DNA of 40,992 nt, taken from the NCBI GenBank assembly GCA_031275815.1, contig JAISOF010000025.1:1-40992 (forward strand), given 5' to 3'. A program made the position numbers and the translations under genes. The notes beneath the pieces are model-generated. The model searched no databases and was not told the DNA's origin. It saw only the letters and a program-made list of their open reading frames with translations. Shown here one piece after another: positions 2,936 to 40,697 of this stretch. The first letter of the stretch is position 1. The number at the start of each line of letters is the position of its first letter. The DNA comes from Candidatus Nomurabacteria bacterium (GTDB taxonomy: Bacteria; Patescibacteriota; Saccharimonadia; Saccharimonadales; Saccharimonadaceae).

Positions 2936-5900
2936 TTACTTGGATAAGCGCTTAATAGCCAGAGCCAACACTGAAGAAGCCCCAGCGAAAATCAGGATCA
3001 AAACGTATACAGGAAGAGCGTTGAAAGACGTGGGAGAAGTGGACGAGACTTTATGCCCAGTGTTGGGGACGCCGAGTTTATCATCATTATCATCCATGTT
3101 AACAGCATAAGTATAGGCGCCGATGTCAGCCGAAAAACGTGTGGCGCCAGTAATGTCAGTTTTGACATCAGACAGGGCAAGGGCGTTGGAGAATAGCGGC
3201 GACTGGTCAGTGATGCGGAAGCTGCCATTGAACGGGTCGAGGAAAGTGCGCTCAAAGTCATCAAGACCGGTGGTGATGTTGGTGGAGCCCAGCGCCACGG
3301 CTCCGCTGCTATTTTTGATGGTCGTGGCGGCTGAATAAGTGATTTGATCAAGCAGGGCGTCATCTGTCACATAGATATCCGTGCTGTCAATATCATCCGC
3401 CCGCCTGGCTCCCAGACTCGCCACATTGGTCAACGCTCCACCGGAGATATAGATGTTGTCACCGGAGCCGTTGACGATTCCGAGGCGGGGCGGTACTTGA
3501 TAGACGGACCATTCTCCGGTGATGGTGGCAATGGGAAGAATAGTAAAGTCTTTCCTATATGAATACATATAATAATAAAACGTTCTTTCAGCGTAGTAAT
3601 TATTGAGGAGCGTATCAGTATTAAGCTGTAGGCTATTATTGTCAGAACAACTTACTTCTATGTTATCATATTTTGAAAATGCTTGAAGTGACCGACCAGT
3701 AGCACCACTGTACTTAGGGTTATCATCAATTACATAATAATAGTAAGGTGAGGGTTTATTACGGATATATCTAGTAATATCGCTGCGTGTGTACACACTG
3801 CATGCGTAATGATATGATGCATCCACCACCCATTCTCCATCAAGGTCGGATTTGTAATCAGCCAGCGTTCCATCATCTGCTATAGTGATGTAATAAGCAT
3901 CAGATAAGTATTGAACCACCCACCAATAATTATAAGTTGTCGGTGTGTTTTTTGAGGAACTATTAATTCCAGCAACTGAGAAGCCATTAAAGTTTTCGGG
4001 CAAAATGTCATCTTCTGAGAACAAATGGTCATATATTGGTTGCAAAACCCCGTCCACGTACCAAGTGAAGATGTAATAATAAAAGATTGAGGACTCTTTA
4101 CGAGTGTATCTGATTGGTTGTGCAATCACTTCCCCCCACTCATAATCTATTTTTATGGTGGGGTGATAGCTATCATCTAAGACCCATTCTCCATCTAAAT
4201 CTGATTTATATCCATATCCGTACAAGTAACTATCTTCAGGTATCGTCAGCTTAAAGGTAAATGGTTCTCGCTCGGAGGCCGCTGAATTGCCAAAAACAGT
4301 GGAGTTCTTAAGGCTAGTCTTGTTGGCGTCGCTCAGCCATAAGCCACCGCCGTTGCCGCCCGGGGACGGCTCCATGCTGGTGGGAATGCCAAGGCTGTGA
4401 TTATTCACAATGACAGCGTTGACGATTTCCGGTGAGCTTTCGGAGTCGTTGTATTCCGTGCCGGTGTGAATGCCGCCGCCATCGTTGAAAGCATAGTTGT
4501 TGGCGATATAGCCGCCATACAGACTGGCGCCACTCAGCAAAATGCCGCCGCCGGTGGTCTCGGAGACATTGTCAGTGACCACAACATTTTCTAGCTTTCC
4601 TCCATTCATGAATATCCCTCCGCCGCACGTCAAAAAGTCGGCTTGGAAATTGGCGACGGCGTCATAATTATCATGCACCCAAGCGTTTTTTAATAGACCG
4701 CTATACATGAATACGCCAGCTCCTCCTTGGAAACCACTTTTGACACCGTGTTGCATGTTATCTACAAGTGTAGTTGGATAAACGGCGCTGAAGCCATTAC
4801 TCACTTCCACACCGTCCACCAGCGGTTGGTATTTTTGGGGTTCGACATCTTGGTGTCCGGCTTCGACTTGGCTGATGACATGCACGCCTTGCGAGGGAAG
4901 AGTGGGCTGCCGGTCGGTGGGGTTGTCTTGGTTGACGAGGTTCATATAATCCGGTTGGATGGGTACAAACGGGAGGTTGTAGTCAGGTTCAAAACCATTA
5001 TGAATTATGTACTGTCCCTCAAGCGTATACCCCCGCTCACCAATAAAATGTGTGGTTTGCCCCTGAGAAGAGCCAATCAGACTCAAACCAGTATCCGTCC
5101 CCTCAGAGTTTTGGTAAGTAAAATTGGGGCGTTGGTCAATGGAAGTTTCGTTGCCGACGAACCCGCCATACAATTTCATATCCATACGGTCGTTTGGGTC
5201 GTCACCAACAATCGGCGCCAACAACAGCCCCGACCACACGCCGCCCACCATGCCATCGTTGGCTTTATACCAGTGTGAAATAGTCCGAGTATACAGCAGC
5301 TCCCTGCCCGGCACCACATATTCGCCTTGCGCCACCCAAATCTGGTGGGCTTTGCCACGCACGGCGGCGATTAAGGCATTTTGGACGCCGCCTTTGGCGT
5401 TGCCGTCCATGGCATTCTCCCAACTGGTGCCATCTTTGGCGCCGGAACCGTGCTCCGTGACATAAACAATGTCACCTGGAAAAGTGGTGAAAGTTGGAGT
5501 GGCGCCAGGAGATTCATAAGCCCCAATGTCGGGGGCGTTGCCCAAAAAATGCGAACGACCAGCAAGGTCTTTTTGGATGACGGGATAAAACACGTCCGTG
5601 CCGGCGTCAATCAAGGGCGAACCCTCGCTGGGGGAATAGTCAAAATCCGGCTTGCCGGGCGAGCCGGGATAGTCCCACGCACCGATAGCGTCCAGCGGAA
5701 AATTGGTGAAATAGCTGGCGTAAGTGTTCAGTTGCTCGATTTCGTCAGTGTCGAGATAGATGGGGGTGAAGACATTGTTCTCGGTGTCTTTGTGGATCCA
5801 GTTGTTCATGTATTTTATGGCGCTTTCTTCTTTGGAAGAGTATGTCATAAAATTACGGTTTACGATAGAAATAGTAGAGGTGTCCTTATATTGCCTGCCA

Positions 5901-6937
5901 TTGCTGGCATCTGTTAGAGTTTGGCTGGTGCCAATAGAGTTATTGAAAAATACGTTATTTTCCAAAATAGAGTCTCCTCTTAGTTCAATAGGGACAGTGA
6001 CCCTGTCAGAATAGAAATAATTGGGACTTTGGTTGTTGACTATAGTATTCCCGACTATATGAGACGCTCCGTGGGATGTGATGATAATGCCACTAGGCCG
6101 CTCCGTAAGATACGAGTCGCCAGTACCGTTATGAGCTATCAAATTACCGCTCAAAGTTCCATCAGTTAATTTGATGACCGGAAACAGCGGAACATCAGTA
6201 ATGTTATTCATAATAATACAACGGTTAACAGTACCCCCATTGACATCAATCGAGCCTCCGCCGTAGTACGCCGGGCTAAAATGCGTCAAAGTCACCCCCT
6301 CCACCATCGCCCCAGCGTGCATGATCATAAGAGAATACCCCGGCTGAAAATCCTCTGCCTCGTCAAAATACGAGCCGCCGTCCATAATCACATCCTCCGG
6401 CGTCGTTCCCTCAGCTCCCCTCAACACCAATCGTCGCTCCATAATCAAATTGTCTGACAAGCGATAAGTGCCGGCAGGAAACTCAATCACAATATCATCC
6501 GGAAAATTATCAACGATGTCGTTAAGGCTGGCACCAGGGTTTTGAGAGAGGTATTGTTGGACTTCAGCGGCGGTGACTGTGATATCCTCAATTTCGACGG
6601 CTTCCGTCGGTTTCATCGCCACGAAGGCAACGCCGCCCAGAAGCAATAGCGCCACGGTCAGCACGACCGTGCGTAGCTTGCAGAAATTGGCTAGTTGGTG
6701 CGAAAGTTTATGTTTGATAATGAGCTTGGGCGGAAGAACCTTCCGGCTAGCGCCCTTTGGTTGGAACAATCCGCCAACAATCTTGTTTGACTTTTTCTTA
6801 ATAAATCGCAACATGCTGAAAATCTTCTTTCTCTCTCGCAAGCTATCAGGTTTTTTATTTGTAACTAAATCTCTACAGGGTAATTCTACCCCCCCCCCCC
6901 ACGTCAAGTAGCCGTGAGGCTTTTTGTCTTGGATCAT
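2936..6937 (-). CDS. Giant parallel beta-helix surface protein, phase-variable start (G12 tract)
   Basis: 1333 residues from the ATG at 6937, or 1292 from the ATG at 6814. A basic n-region and a hydrophobic segment (VVLTVALLLLGGVAFVAM) form an uncleaved or late-cleaved signal. The body holds repeated N-, T- and G-rich beta-helix rungs (GGSIDVNGGTVNRC, GGGIFMNGGKLENV, GGGILLSG) and a second start-like module (VYVTEHGSGAKDGTSWENA). The C-terminus has VPNTG, a hydrophobic helix and the basic tail KRLSK, which resembles a sortase-sorting signal. The ATG at 6937 lies 4 nt after TATAAT and puts the G12 tract in codons 13-17. With 11 or 13 G the frame stops within a few codons. The ATG at 6814 is the conservative alternative. 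A low-GC insert with duplicated GEWVxDxSYH units occupies about 3540-4260. Confidence 0.85.
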   Translation of the reverse strand: MIQDKKPHGYLTWGGGVELPCRDLVTNKKPDSLRERKKIFSMLRFIKKKSNKIVGGLFQPKGASRKVLPPKLIIKHKLSHQLANFCKLRTVVLTVALLLLGGVAFVAMKPTEAVEIEDITVTAAEVQQYLSQNPGASLNDIVDNFPDDIVIEFPAGTYRLSDNLIMERRLVLRGAEGTTPEDVIMDGGSYFDEAEDFQPGYSLMIMHAGAMVEGVTLTHFSPAYYGGGSIDVNGGTVNRCIIMNNITDVPLFPVIKLTDGTLSGNLIAHNGTGDSYLTERPSGIIITSHGASHIVGNTIVNNQSPNYFYSDRVTVPIELRGDSILENNVFFNNSIGTSQTLTDASNGRQYKDTSTISIVNRNFMTYSSKEESAIKYMNNWIHKDTENNVFTPIYLDTDEIEQLNTYASYFTNFPLDAIGAWDYPGSPGKPDFDYSPSEGSPLIDAGTDVFYPVIQKDLAGRSHFLGNAPDIGAYESPGATPTFTTFPGDIVYVTEHGSGAKDGTSWENAMDGNAKGGVQNALIAAVRGKAHQIWVAQGEYVVPGRELLYTRTISHWYKANDGMVGGVWSGLLLAPIVGDDPNDRMDMKLYGGFVGNETSIDQRPNFTYQNSEGTDTGLSLIGSSQGQTTHFIGERGYTLEGQYIIHNGFEPDYNLPFVPIQPDYMNLVNQDNPTDRQPTLPSQGVHVISQVEAGHQDVEPQKYQPLVDGVEVSNGFSAVYPTTLVDNMQHGVKSGFQGGAGVFMYSGLLKNAWVHDNYDAVANFQADFLTCGGGIFMNGGKLENVVVTDNVSETTGGGILLSGASLYGGYIANNYAFNDGGGIHTGTEYNDSESSPEIVNAVIVNNHSLGIPTSMEPSPGGNGGGLWLSDANKTSLKNSTVFGNSAASEREPFTFKLTIPEDSYLYGYGYKSDLDGEWVLDDSYHPTIKIDYEWGEVIAQPIRYTRKESSIFYYYIFTWYVDGVLQPIYDHLFSEDDILPENFNGFSVAGINSSSKNTPTTYNYWWVVQYLSDAYYITIADDGTLADYKSDLDGEWVVDASYHYACSVYTRSDITRYIRNKPSPYYYYVIDDNPKYSGATGRSLQAFSKYDNIEVSCSDNNSLQLNTDTLLNNYYAERTFYYYMYSYRKDFTILPIATITGEWSVYQVPPRLGIVNGSGDNIYISGGALTNVASLGARRADDIDSTDIYVTDDALLDQITYSAATTIKNSSGAVALGSTNITTGLDDFERTFLDPFNGSFRITDQSPLFSNALALSDVKTDITGATRFSADIGAYTYAVNMDDNDDKLGVPNTGHKVSSTSPTSFNALPVYVLILIFAGASSVLALAIKRLSK
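6889..6900 (-). repeat. Homopolymer G12 (minus strand) in 5' end of beta-helix gene
   Basis: Twelve consecutive C on the plus strand, read as G12 by the gene. It encodes the end of Trp plus Gly-Gly-Gly and the first base of Val when read from the ATG at 6937, and is in frame (ON) here. It also lies between TTGACG and TAGAAT with a 13-nt spacer, so a promoter-spacing role is the alternative reading. Confidence 0.9.
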
Positions 6938-9150: not shown

Positions 9151-12100
9151 CTAAACCTCCGGCGTCAAAGAGATTACCACCTCCCCTGTATATTCGCAAG
9201 CAGGCAAATCGTAAGTGGCTTTTGCGCCGAACCACACGACAGTGTCTTCGCCTTGCGACAAATCTGTGCTGGAGTCGGAGGTTTTGATGGGTGTTGGGAA
9301 AACGGTAATGCCTTGCCAGTTGTTGGGTGTGCTGTCGGTGTCGCCAACCGCATACCCCCAATGATTGTTCAACATCAAACCAACTTCTTCCAGCGCCTCA
9401 ATGTAGTATTTTTCATCACTAATAGTGCAAACAAGGTCTACTCCACTGTCACCAGCGGCAATATCAAGGTGATAACCTCCGGCATTATTGGTTTTGACAT
9501 TAGCGGTTAAATAACCCGACAACAACTGATTGGGCGTACCACTAAGGTTAATTTGGTTAAAGCTGAGTGACAGGGTGATGAAAGTAGAGGTGTATTCGTA
9601 GCCGTCTTCGACTGTCCATGCGTCGCCGGCGATTGAGACGTAGACGTCCACCGTCGCTGCTGCGTGCGCGGGGGTGGTCACGGTGAAGGTCGTGTCGTTC
9701 ACAATTGTGATGTTGGTGGCGGGCAGGTCGTCAAATTTCACTTCGATGTCGGCTGGTGTTAGGTTGGAGAAGTTGCCGCCTGTGAAGGTCACGGTTTCGC
9801 CGCCCAGGAAGGAGCCGGTTTTGGGGGCGAAGTCGACGTAGGTGTAGGTGCCGACGGTTACTAATTCATTGTTGGAAAAATTATTGTTTTGCACGTCTAC
9901 GCTGCCTGCTGGGTGTGCTGCTGGTGTGCAGGCAGTCAAATTCGCTGTTAGTGGGCACAATTCACCATCGATGAAGACTGATGCTAGAAGCGAAACTGTA
10001 GCGTATCCGTCACCGCTGTTGCCGGTGATTTGCGTGGAGTTGTCGGTGGGGCTGGGCATGCTGGAGTTGCCGGCGATGGTTTGCGCGCCGGAGAAGACTT
10101 TGCCGGAGTAATGTTCTGAGCATAAGGGGTCGGTGGTGCCATTGGCGCAAAGATTGTCACTACTATCTCGTCGTGGCGAACGGTCGCTTTGTCCGGCGAT
10201 GGCGACTGAGCCAATTAGTCCGGAAACATAAGACGAGCCGCCACCTCCGCCGCCAAAACAACACCCAGAATTGCCGCCACCTCCGCCGCCATAATATCCG
10301 CCGCCGCCGTTGCCTGTATTGATGTTAGTTACTCCAGCACCACCAACGCCAAATGTGCCAGCGGTTGCAGCAACAGCACCGCCATATGCCCCTGCCCCAG
10401 CTCCTCCGCTGGTTTGAGTGGCGCCACCACCGCCACCATCAGACCCACTTACTCCGCCACCAGTTAGTCCGCCACCGTATCCAGATTGACGAATATAGCT
10501 AAGATACTGACCATATCCTCCACCGCCAGCCGCTACCATAATGCGTGAGTTTAAGCCGGTTTCGCTGTCCCACGCGCCATTTTCTAAACGTACGTCTGTT
10601 GCGCCACCGCCACCACTCAAGCCTCCGGAAGCCCCGCCGTTATAACCGCCAGTCTTGCCAACACCTTGACCACCAACATTGATATATACAACTTCATTAG
10701 CATTCAGCCCAATGACACCTCTGGTATATCCACCTTTGGCGCCGTTTGTGGCGTTGTTTCCTTGCGCGCCCCAAAGTTGGAATGTGTAGTTGGCGTTAAT
10801 GGGGGCCGTAAACGTTGAGGTGCTTCCGGTGTACGGAAAACTATATTCTTTCATGCCGGAGAAATCTGACGCCACTCCACCTGTCGCTGGACCGAATTGT
10901 CGGGATAAAGAAGTATTGCCAAATGTTCCTATGGTGCCGAGGGTTTTGGCTTTATTGTTGATGGATAAAATTACGTCCCAATCTCCACTACTGAGAGAAG
11001 TGGGGATGTCAACTGTAAAAGTAGTATCATCAACAATGGTGATATTCTCACCAGTTTCCGTTCCGAAAGTCACTACAATATCGTTGCTGGATAAGCCACC
11101 AAGACTGCCACCGCTAAAAGTGATGGTCGCGGATAGGAGCGTACTTACATTTTTTGGCGAGTAGTCCCAATAAGTATAAGCGTCAGGTAAGGTAATAACG
11201 TCGTCATCAATGGTAATTTCGATATCCACTGCGCCGGTGGTGTGGGCTGGTGTTTTGCATTGAAAAGTCTGCACACTTATAATGGCGATGTCGGAGCATG
11301 GAGTGCCGTCAATAGTAACATTGTCTAGTGTGGTCGTGCCAATTAAATCTGCGTTGGTGATACGGGCGTAGCCGTTGCCAGCGTGACCGGTTTCAGTGCC
11401 ACCGCTCGGGGTGGGCATTTCGGCGTTGCCGGCAACGATTAAAGTATCTGAAAAAACTTTACCAGAGTAATGTTCTGAACATACGGGGTCGGTGGTGCCA
11501 TTGGCGCAAAGATTGTCACTACTATCTTGTCGTGGCGAACGGTCGCTCTGTCCGGCGATTGCTACTGAGCCGACTAGCCCGGAAACATAAGACGAGCCGC
11601 CACCACCGCCACCCCAGCAACAAGCAGAATTGCTACCACCTCCGCCACCATAGTATCCGCCACCTCCGCCACCCACAGAGGCATTAGTTATGCCAGCACC
11701 ACCAATGCCAAACGTGCCAGCGCTTCCAGCCCCAGCGCCACCGTATGCCGTGCCCCCAGATCCTCCACTGGTTTGAGTGGCGCCTCTACCATTCTCGTTG
11801 CCTGTCCCAGTGCCGCCGGTTAATCCGCCACCGTATCCAAAATTACGAACAATGTTTGAATATTGACCGTATCCACCGCCACCAGCTGCCACCATAATGC
11901 GTGAGTTTAAGCCAATTTCATCATTCCACGCGCCATTTTCTAAACGTACGTCCGTTGCGCCACCGCCACCACTCAAGCCGCCGGAAGCCCCGCCATTGTA
12001 GCCACCGACTGCGCCGACTCCTTGGGCGCCAACATGAAAATAAAGCGTGTCGCCGGCATTTAAGGAAATGGTGCCTTTGGTGTAGCCGCCTTTGGCGCCA

Positions 12101-12498
12101 TTGGTGGCGTTGTTTCCTTGCGCGCCCCAGAGTTCGATTTGGTAATCGCCGTCGGTGGGCGCGATGAAAGTTTGCGGGCTGCCGTCGGCGCCGTTTGTGC
12201 CGTTGTATGTATAATTTATGGGGTTGAACTGAAACTCTGGGCTGGTGAAGGTTAGGGTGTCGCCGCCGCTGGTTGGACCGAAGGTGCTGGAGATGATAAT
12301 ATTACTGGGATTGATATCCGCATAAGCCAACTCCCCCATTACCACATTGGCGACCGGACTAAAAACCATGATGAGGGCTATTGCAAGAAACTTAAGCGTT
12401 GACCATTTAGCCTTTCCATCTGGGGGGGGGGGGGTAGGCAACAGTACCTTACTTAATAAGGCAATATTAGCTGACTTCTCCTCACGTCTCTTAACCAT
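9151..12498 (-). CDS. Surface protein with two glycine-rich (ALK-type) and several IPT/TIG domains, phase-variable (C13 tract)
   Basis: 1115 residues from the ATG at 12498; the frame is open from 12531. The N-terminus is basic, then PTPPPP encoded by C13, then a signal helix (FLAIALIMVFSPVANVVM) ending near AYA. Two long modules (FxAPTDGDYQIELWGAQG ... GGATDVRLENGAW ... SRIMVAAGGGGYG ... GGGGGSSYVSG) match the Gly_rich family first defined in ALK/LTK receptors. They alternate with IPT/TIG Ig-like domains (FGPTSGGDTLTFTSP, FAPKTGSFLGGETVTFTGG). The last ~150 residues are a CPR-type domain (VKTNNAGGYHLDIAAG, WGYAV, WFGAKATYDLPACEYTGEV). No anchor helix is seen at the C-terminus. With 12 or 14 C the frame soon reaches TAG or TAA. 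Likely an adhesin or host-binding factor. Confidence 0.88.
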   Translation of the reverse strand: MVKRREEKSANIALLSKVLLPTPPPPDGKAKWSTLKFLAIALIMVFSPVANVVMGELAYADINPSNIIISSTFGPTSGGDTLTFTSPEFQFNPINYTYNGTNGADGSPQTFIAPTDGDYQIELWGAQGNNATNGAKGGYTKGTISLNAGDTLYFHVGAQGVGAVGGYNGGASGGLSGGGGATDVRLENGAWNDEIGLNSRIMVAAGGGGYGQYSNIVRNFGYGGGLTGGTGTGNENGRGATQTSGGSGGTAYGGAGAGSAGTFGIGGAGITNASVGGGGGGYYGGGGGSNSACCWGGGGGGSSYVSGLVGSVAIAGQSDRSPRQDSSDNLCANGTTDPVCSEHYSGKVFSDTLIVAGNAEMPTPSGGTETGHAGNGYARITNADLIGTTTLDNVTIDGTPCSDIAIISVQTFQCKTPAHTTGAVDIEITIDDDVITLPDAYTYWDYSPKNVSTLLSATITFSGGSLGGLSSNDIVVTFGTETGENITIVDDTTFTVDIPTSLSSGDWDVILSINNKAKTLGTIGTFGNTSLSRQFGPATGGVASDFSGMKEYSFPYTGSTSTFTAPINANYTFQLWGAQGNNATNGAKGGYTRGVIGLNANEVVYINVGGQGVGKTGGYNGGASGGLSGGGGATDVRLENGAWDSETGLNSRIMVAAGGGGYGQYLSYIRQSGYGGGLTGGGVSGSDGGGGGATQTSGGAGAGAYGGAVAATAGTFGVGGAGVTNINTGNGGGGYYGGGGGGNSGCCFGGGGGGSSYVSGLIGSVAIAGQSDRSPRRDSSDNLCANGTTDPLCSEHYSGKVFSGAQTIAGNSSMPSPTDNSTQITGNSGDGYATVSLLASVFIDGELCPLTANLTACTPAAHPAGSVDVQNNNFSNNELVTVGTYTYVDFAPKTGSFLGGETVTFTGGNFSNLTPADIEVKFDDLPATNITIVNDTTFTVTTPAHAAATVDVYVSIAGDAWTVEDGYEYTSTFITLSLSFNQINLSGTPNQLLSGYLTANVKTNNAGGYHLDIAAGDSGVDLVCTISDEKYYIEALEEVGLMLNNHWGYAVGDTDSTPNNWQGITVFPTPIKTSDSSTDLSQGEDTVVWFGAKATYDLPACEYTGEVVISLTPEV
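12422..12434 (-). repeat. Homopolymer C13 (coding strand) in signal-peptide region
   Basis: Thirteen G on the plus strand, read as C13 by the surface gene (Thr-Pro-Pro-Pro-Pro). It is in frame (ON) in this sequence. One base less leads to TAG about 19 codons on; one more leads to TAA within 6 codons. Confidence 0.92.
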
Positions 12499-12509
12499 AA
12501 CTGCCATAT

Positions 12510-12538
12510 ATTGTATGGTAAACGTTGCCATAATGCAA
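12510..12538 (-). promoter_or_regulatory. Promoter of glycine-rich surface gene
   Basis: TTGCAT, a 17-nt spacer and TACAAT. The predicted transcription start falls between the ATGs at 12507 and 12498, which favours 12498 as a near-leaderless start. Confidence 0.65.
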
Positions 12539-25877: not shown

Positions 25878-25906
25878 TTGACGCGCCGCGCATGATGGCA
25901 TATAAT
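25878..25906 (+). promoter_or_regulatory. Promoter of (CT)20 surface gene, leaderless
   Basis: TTGACG, 17 nt and TATAAT, near consensus. Six nucleotides separate TATAAT from the ATG at 25913, so the first transcribed base is at or next to the start codon. Confidence 0.8.
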
Positions 25907-25912
25907 GTGCTT

Positions 25913-28458
<2,546 letters not shown>

Positions 28459-36629: not shown

Positions 36630-40697
<4,068 letters not shown>

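Follow-up and report, generated by a model that had tools for sequence, protein, structure and literature searches.

A C13 tract before a signal helix as a probable phase-variation locus in a Patescibacteria genome

The C13 tract and the other tracts of the window

The window analysed here, a 40,992-nucleotide stretch of DNA from Candidatus Nomurabacteria bacterium (Accession No. JAISOF010000025.1), carries four repeat tracts that represent two mechanisms, i.e. the C13 homopolymer and, besides it, G12 at position 6889, (CT)20 at 25983, and (CT)16 at 40639 (Table 1). C13 is a pure run located in frame within a minus-strand ORF of 1,126 codons (12531..9151), only a few codons 5' of a hydrophobic signal helix. 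The C13 region encodes Thr-Pro-Pro-Pro-Pro-Asp directly before KWSTLKFLAIALIMVFSPVANVV, and the helix begins no more than 10 residues past this peptide; the four prolines thus stand directly before the signal helix, as the initial annotation had proposed. Dinucleotide-preserving shuffles of the window gave an expectation of 0.01 G/C runs of at least 12, vs two tracts observed.

Table 1. Features of the C13 locus and of the other repeat tracts in the window.
Feature	Position	Strand	Basis or remarks
C13 homopolymer (G13 on the plus strand), proposed translational switch	12422..12434	-	Sequence, simulated lengths, shuffles
Gene switched by C13, secreted protein, ON (in frame) in the assembly	9151..12498	-	Probable start ATG 12498, domain matches
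Possible promoter TTGCAT-17-TACAAT (weak -35), 5' of ATG 12498	12510..12538	-	Predicted
Alternative start TTG directly before C13, TAAGG 5 nt upstream	12439..12441	-	Sequence
Proposed second switch, promoter TTGACG - t G12 (13-nt spacer) - TAGAAT; G12 (6889-6900) between -35 and -10	6883..6907	-	Sequence, paralogue
Gene under the G12 promoter, encoding a secreted protein of 1,301 aa from TTG 6841	2936..6841	-	Start predicted, as the ATG of the C38 paralogue aligns at this codon
(CT)20.5 tract encoding (Ser-Leu)n	25983..26023	+	Promoter TTGACG/TATAAT (TATAAT 25901-25906), ATG 25913
Surface-type ORF (795 codons) behind (CT)20.5, intact, out of frame with ATG 25913	26071..28458	+	Reading of frames
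(AG)16 of the ATGCGATTAGCC(AG)n start cassette ((CT)16 on the plus strand), start ATG 40682, in frame (ON)	40639..40670	-	ATG reading
Secreted-protein gene following the (AG)16 cassette	36630..40682	-	One ALK/LTK glycine-rich domain and four TIG domains

When tract lengths were simulated, the full protein was kept at C-run lengths of 10, 13, and 16, whereas any change of ±1 or ±2 in C13 resulted in a truncated protein. Lengths of 12 and 15 lead to a TAG located 14 codons past the prolines, and lengths of 11 and 14 lead to a TAA 4 codons past them. These stops agree with those given earlier for C12 (TAG about 19 codons on; ∼18–19 when counted from the tract start) and for C14 (TAA in 6 codons). 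The first in-frame ATG 3' of C13 lies 65 nt from the tract start, within the hydrophobic helix, where the initial annotation had also placed it. The locus therefore shows the frame-shift behaviour that defines translational phase variation by SSRs, with a start codon that is predicted. A promoter-spacer role for C13 was also considered and dropped, as no -10-like hexamer follows the tract on either strand.

The first ATGs of the listed ORF, at 12531 and 12507, are at or before the likely transcription start. Since the likely -10 element (TACAAT, ending at 12510) follows ATG 12531, the next usable starts are ATG 12498 and TTG 12441. The gene thus probably starts at one of these codons (MVKRREEK... 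from the former), both of which are 5' of the tract. A TTATG/TTATAG-TTA block located just after the -10 element recurs at many other loci. Likewise, only 7 nt separate TATAAT from the ATG at the (CT)20 locus of the window. The recurrent block and this spacing favour ATG 12498, which would leave a very short leader. The start is a prediction, because the -35 element is poor and the TTGCAT/TACAAT pair was not picked by a standard promoter scan. As regards the earlier claim that the promoter leaves little room for a start beyond the tract, both probable starts are upstream of C13, and the promoter itself is not strong.

In the product of the C13 gene, two glycine-rich domains of the ALK/LTK type (PF12810, E 3e-69) are combined with two TIG domains, a domain content that fits a secreted protein, as expected. 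In relatives, partial domain matches were the only ones seen, with no ortholog sharing the same 5' end. The glycine-rich domain in question is that of animal receptor kinases, and it is matched, joined with TIG domains, in the products of both 9151-12498 and 36630-40682 (E 3e-69 and 2e-33, respectively).

The G12 tract probably occupies a non-coding position. The promoter of a paralogue (G000:C38:6757-6785) reads TTGACA ttcG14 TAAGAT with a 17-nt spacer, and the ATG of this paralogue aligns with TTG 6841, which makes 6841, and not 7057, the probable start of the window gene. At (CT)20.5, the frame of ATG 25913 reaches a stop after 49 aa, and this locus is accordingly OFF in the assembly.

Repeat tracts and start cassettes across the genome

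The genome is a 1.07-Mb draft assembly of 43 contigs, in which tracts were listed by pattern searches for G/C and A/T homopolymers and AG/CT dinucleotides. In total, 12 G/C runs of at least 10 were identified, compared with one A/T run of that length, together with ∼30 AG/CT tracts of 6–33 units (two anchored AG patterns, complementary to each other, gave 31 matches, of which two belong to a single interrupted tract). The G/C and AG/CT runs together amount to ∼40 repeat tracts. Several G/C tracts of 10–11, e.g. those on C16, C29, and C30, are without a clear switch position.

Among the 30 dinucleotide tracts, 22 are located directly before a long ORF with a hydrophobic helix, vs 2.9% of random window positions, under a rule that required an open frame of at least 150 codons immediately after the tract and a hydrophobic stretch within its first 75 codons. 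Several of the remaining tracts are at contig ends or narrowly missed this rule. The targets are thus of a surface type: a helix follows these 22 tracts, ALK/LTK glycine-rich and TIG domains are present in the proteins P0001 and P0003, and surface display is predicted.

Judged from ATG starts only, 8 loci are ON, 15 are OFF, 2 are mixed, and 1 has no ATG, although the assembly is a draft of 43 contigs, so that individual tract lengths, and with them the ON/OFF calls, may be wrong. The 8 ON and 15 OFF loci, which are different loci in one assembly and not two alleles of one locus, are close to the one-third ON expected of freely slipping tracts. The ORFs past the OFF tracts remain open for 250–500 codons or to the end of the stretch read (133 codons in one ORF cut by a contig end).

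Three further sites were recorded in the course of this census. A G10 tract (L002/L235, G000:C9:8009) lies between ∼500 codons upstream and 366 downstream, the two stretches being open in different frames; it seemingly splits one gene mid-course and may be either a mid-gene switch or an assembly slip. At L236 (G000:C38:6763 and 7026), a pair of divergently oriented genes, separated by 260 bp, carries one tract on each side, i.e. a G14 promoter spacer and an N-terminal coding G15, and on the G15 side the ATG with the best ribosome site is out of frame. Two contig ends with near-identical flanks (L052 and L058; G000:C2:95 and G000:C24:77809) bear (AG)15 and (AG)12, respectively, indicating that AG repeats also break the assembly.

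A ATGCGATT leader precedes (AG)n at ten loci. The exact combination ATGCGATTNNCC-AGAGAGAG is present in 8 copies in the genome, and the ten leaders are completed by the variants at L062, which is one base shorter, and L055 (ATGCGATTAACTGCGATTAACC). The proteins behind these leaders fall into five mutually unrelated groups by blastp, namely a large group of modular surface proteins related to one another, and four further groups (L065, L055, L062, and L063). The exact cassette pattern was found in none of the 150 other family genomes, and a search of 84,980 genomes yielded only four single matches to the AG cassette, in unrelated phyla, which we read as chance; none was found in viral contigs. 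We tentatively suggest that start modules consisting of a promoter, the ATGCGATT leader, and (AG)n, or corresponding modules with (CT)n, are transferable and may have spread onto unrelated surface genes, such that ∼30–40 independent switches would give a combinatorial surface, probably varying host-cell attachment or escape from host resistance, phages, or predators; we consider this possible, with the balance somewhat against it.

Poly-G promoters and mismatch repair in the family

Of 151 family genomes, 37 contain G tracts of at least 10 and 26 contain (AG)6, indicating that the trait is patchy in the family, where the source genome has the most AG tracts. Same-genus and other family members (L137, L148, and L150) likewise carry G tracts immediately 5' of signal helices. 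A MutS_V match was obtained in one of the 151 genomes and not in the source genome. Most of the family genomes lacking MutS are also without such tracts, and missing mismatch repair is thus permissive but not sufficient. The sole MutS_V match (G072 C1:38598-39149) is weak (31 bits) and lies in a 1,169-codon frame; G072 is also the genome with the most poly-G tracts (41).

A search of 394 family genomes from 61 genera with the pattern TTGAC-N1-9-G8-N0-8-TANNNT returned 161 sites, spread over 60 genomes and 21 genera, compared with 5 for a reversed pattern control, the total having been summed by hand and including a few tracts counted twice owing to the variable gaps. Although the middle three bases of the last hexamer are free in the pattern, 31 of 113 parsed sites read TATAAT, vs ∼2 expected. 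Spacer lengths cluster at 15–18, a range that the search pattern itself favours. Across a phylum sample that included the source family, the pattern is rarer (18 of 379 genomes). A homopolymer lies between the -35 and -10 elements at 6883-6907 of the window, C38:6757-6785, and C26:6858-6885, which is the porA-type layout.

Phase variation, alternative explanations, and known systems

The proposal of the initial annotation that C13 switches the glycine-rich surface protein is supported by the frame arithmetic, the ∼40 similar tracts of the genome, the clustering of the dinucleotide tracts before signal helices, their mixed frames, the intact ORFs, the 12-to-1 excess of G/C over A/T runs, and the lack of a MutS match. 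It is very probable, in our judgement, that C13 is a contingency locus within a genome-wide phasome in which surface proteins undergo slipped-strand phase variation. Replication slippage would add bases to C13 or remove them. As the tract follows the start codon and precedes the signal helix, only one length in three would preserve the frame, and the others would truncate the product and turn the secreted glycine-rich protein reversibly OFF. In-frame tracts before a signal helix (poly-C/G, (AG)n encoding Arg-Glu repeats, and (CT)n encoding Ser-Leu repeats) would form one class of switches, and poly-G in the -35/-10 spacer, which would tune transcription, the other. Slipped-strand mispairing with frame or promoter switching is preferred because it explains the place, the base preference, the mixed frames, and the intact ORFs together. 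The role of the switches may be to vary host-cell contact or to evade phages or predators.

The tracts could alternatively reflect neutral slippage, whereby repeats grow anywhere in a genome without mismatch repair and C13 has no switching role. The scarcity of MutS_V matches in the family (1 of 151 genomes) would agree with this explanation, since long tracts would then generally be repaired poorly. However, the tracts concentrate before signal helices far above background (22/30 vs 2.9%) and also between promoter hexamers (161 vs 5 reversed), G/C runs outnumber A/T runs by 12 to 1, and most MutS-lacking family genomes have no such tracts. Neutral slippage is disfavoured above all by tract position, and we regard it as improbable.

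Homopolymers of the length of C13 provoke transcript slippage, and RNA polymerase slippage on C13 or on the dinucleotide runs, or programmed ribosomal frameshifting, might therefore yield some full-length protein at any tract length, making the tract a dimmer instead of an on/off switch. The out-of-frame genes do remain intact, which agrees with read-through, but reversible switching equally predicts intact out-of-frame ORFs. Moreover, transcript slippage in 2-nt units on (AG)n is no usual mechanism, and the promoter-spacer tracts do not need translation. Read-through as the main explanation is thus decidedly improbable, although transcript slippage or frameshifting could make the OFF state leaky.

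Selection at the protein level, under which Pro, Arg-Glu, and Ser-Leu repeats would serve as structural N-regions of the signal peptide's 5' side, with the repetitive DNA as a by-product, agrees with the simple peptides encoded directly before the hydrophobic helix. It is nevertheless very hard to credit, given that three chemically unlike peptides occupy one place, that the DNA is perfectly repetitive and uses no synonymous codons, and that, of the 23 loci callable from an ATG, 15 read out of frame; loci keeping frame and peptide with scrambled codons were not seen among the tracts. An assembly or sequencing artefact, e.g. two-colour poly-G calls, can practically be discounted despite the draft state of the 43 contigs and the location of some poly-G tracts of relatives near contig ends, since C13 lies inside a 41-kb contig and is flanked to either side by an open frame, G12 and G14 occupy equivalent positions in paralogous promoters, AG/CT repeats cannot stem from poly-G miscalls, and sites flanked by both promoter hexamers were found in 60 genomes.

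Phase variation by slipped-strand mispairing is a known mechanism, and on our best reading it takes the form here of a large phasome in a lineage of Patescibacteria, probably Saccharibacteria. A phylum sample of ∼150 families with small genomes agrees with placement in Patescibacteria, and Saccharibacteria is the likely name within it. No report of repeat-mediated phase variation in Saccharibacteria, Patescibacteria, or the candidate phyla radiation (CPR) was found in a provisional search that covered neither bioRxiv preprints nor most subscription papers. An episymbiotic lifestyle of the source bacterium is suggested by cultivated Patescibacteria (PMC12206443). The bacterium is very small and probably host-dependent, and its tracts suggest a random reshuffling of its surface. 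A life attached to other microbes is generally assumed for CPR bacteria, whose recognition of hosts and response to host resistance are little understood. If the phasome of secreted proteins is real, surface variation in CPR bacteria could be tested by long-read sequencing of existing samples or co-cultures, and gene calls from single genomes, in which many such genes seem truncated or start-less, would misrepresent the surface repertoire.

The nearest report from a CPR bacterium concerns the PTD-repeat protein of Gracilibacterium BD1-5, a predicted surface protein with a hypervariable repeat (PMC6851277), but its in-frame 9-mers keep the protein sequence and involve no frame or promoter switching. 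In Neisseria, the many scattered opa surface-protein genes have their reading frame set by CTCTT leader repeats (PMC3745409). The present loci resemble opa in that a short repeat near the gene start sets the frame of scattered surface-protein genes, but the opa pentamer lies inside the signal peptide of one protein family, whereas mono- and dinucleotide tracts are located here in a pre-helix extension of unrelated proteins in a CPR genome. The closest parallel to the (CT)n loci is oipA of Helicobacter pylori, an outer-membrane adhesin switched by slipped-strand mispairing through the number of CT repeats near its 5' end (PMC10564699); the proteins are unrelated and the phylum is another, and AG-strand cassettes with the shared ATGCGATT leader occur here as well. 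Campylobacter jejuni NCTC11168 contains 29 poly-G/C loci of 7 or more (PMC4965091), and many surface-glycan-modifying enzymes are among the Campylobacter targets (PMC8437040). The likeness consists in many poly-G/C tracts in one small genome, and the difference in the targets, which include glycan-modifying enzymes there and are secreted proteins here.

In Neisseria meningitidis, poly-G in the -35/-10 spacer of porA alters expression (PMC3639595). The site at 6883-6907 of the window and the family-wide sites have this layout; in contrast to porA, they are known from the sequence pattern only, in 60 genomes of one CPR family. In one family genome (G034), poly-G promoter tracts at L152, L156, L159, L160, and L163 precede proteins starting with MTRLPTPG(S/G)D, some of which contain collagen-like repeats.
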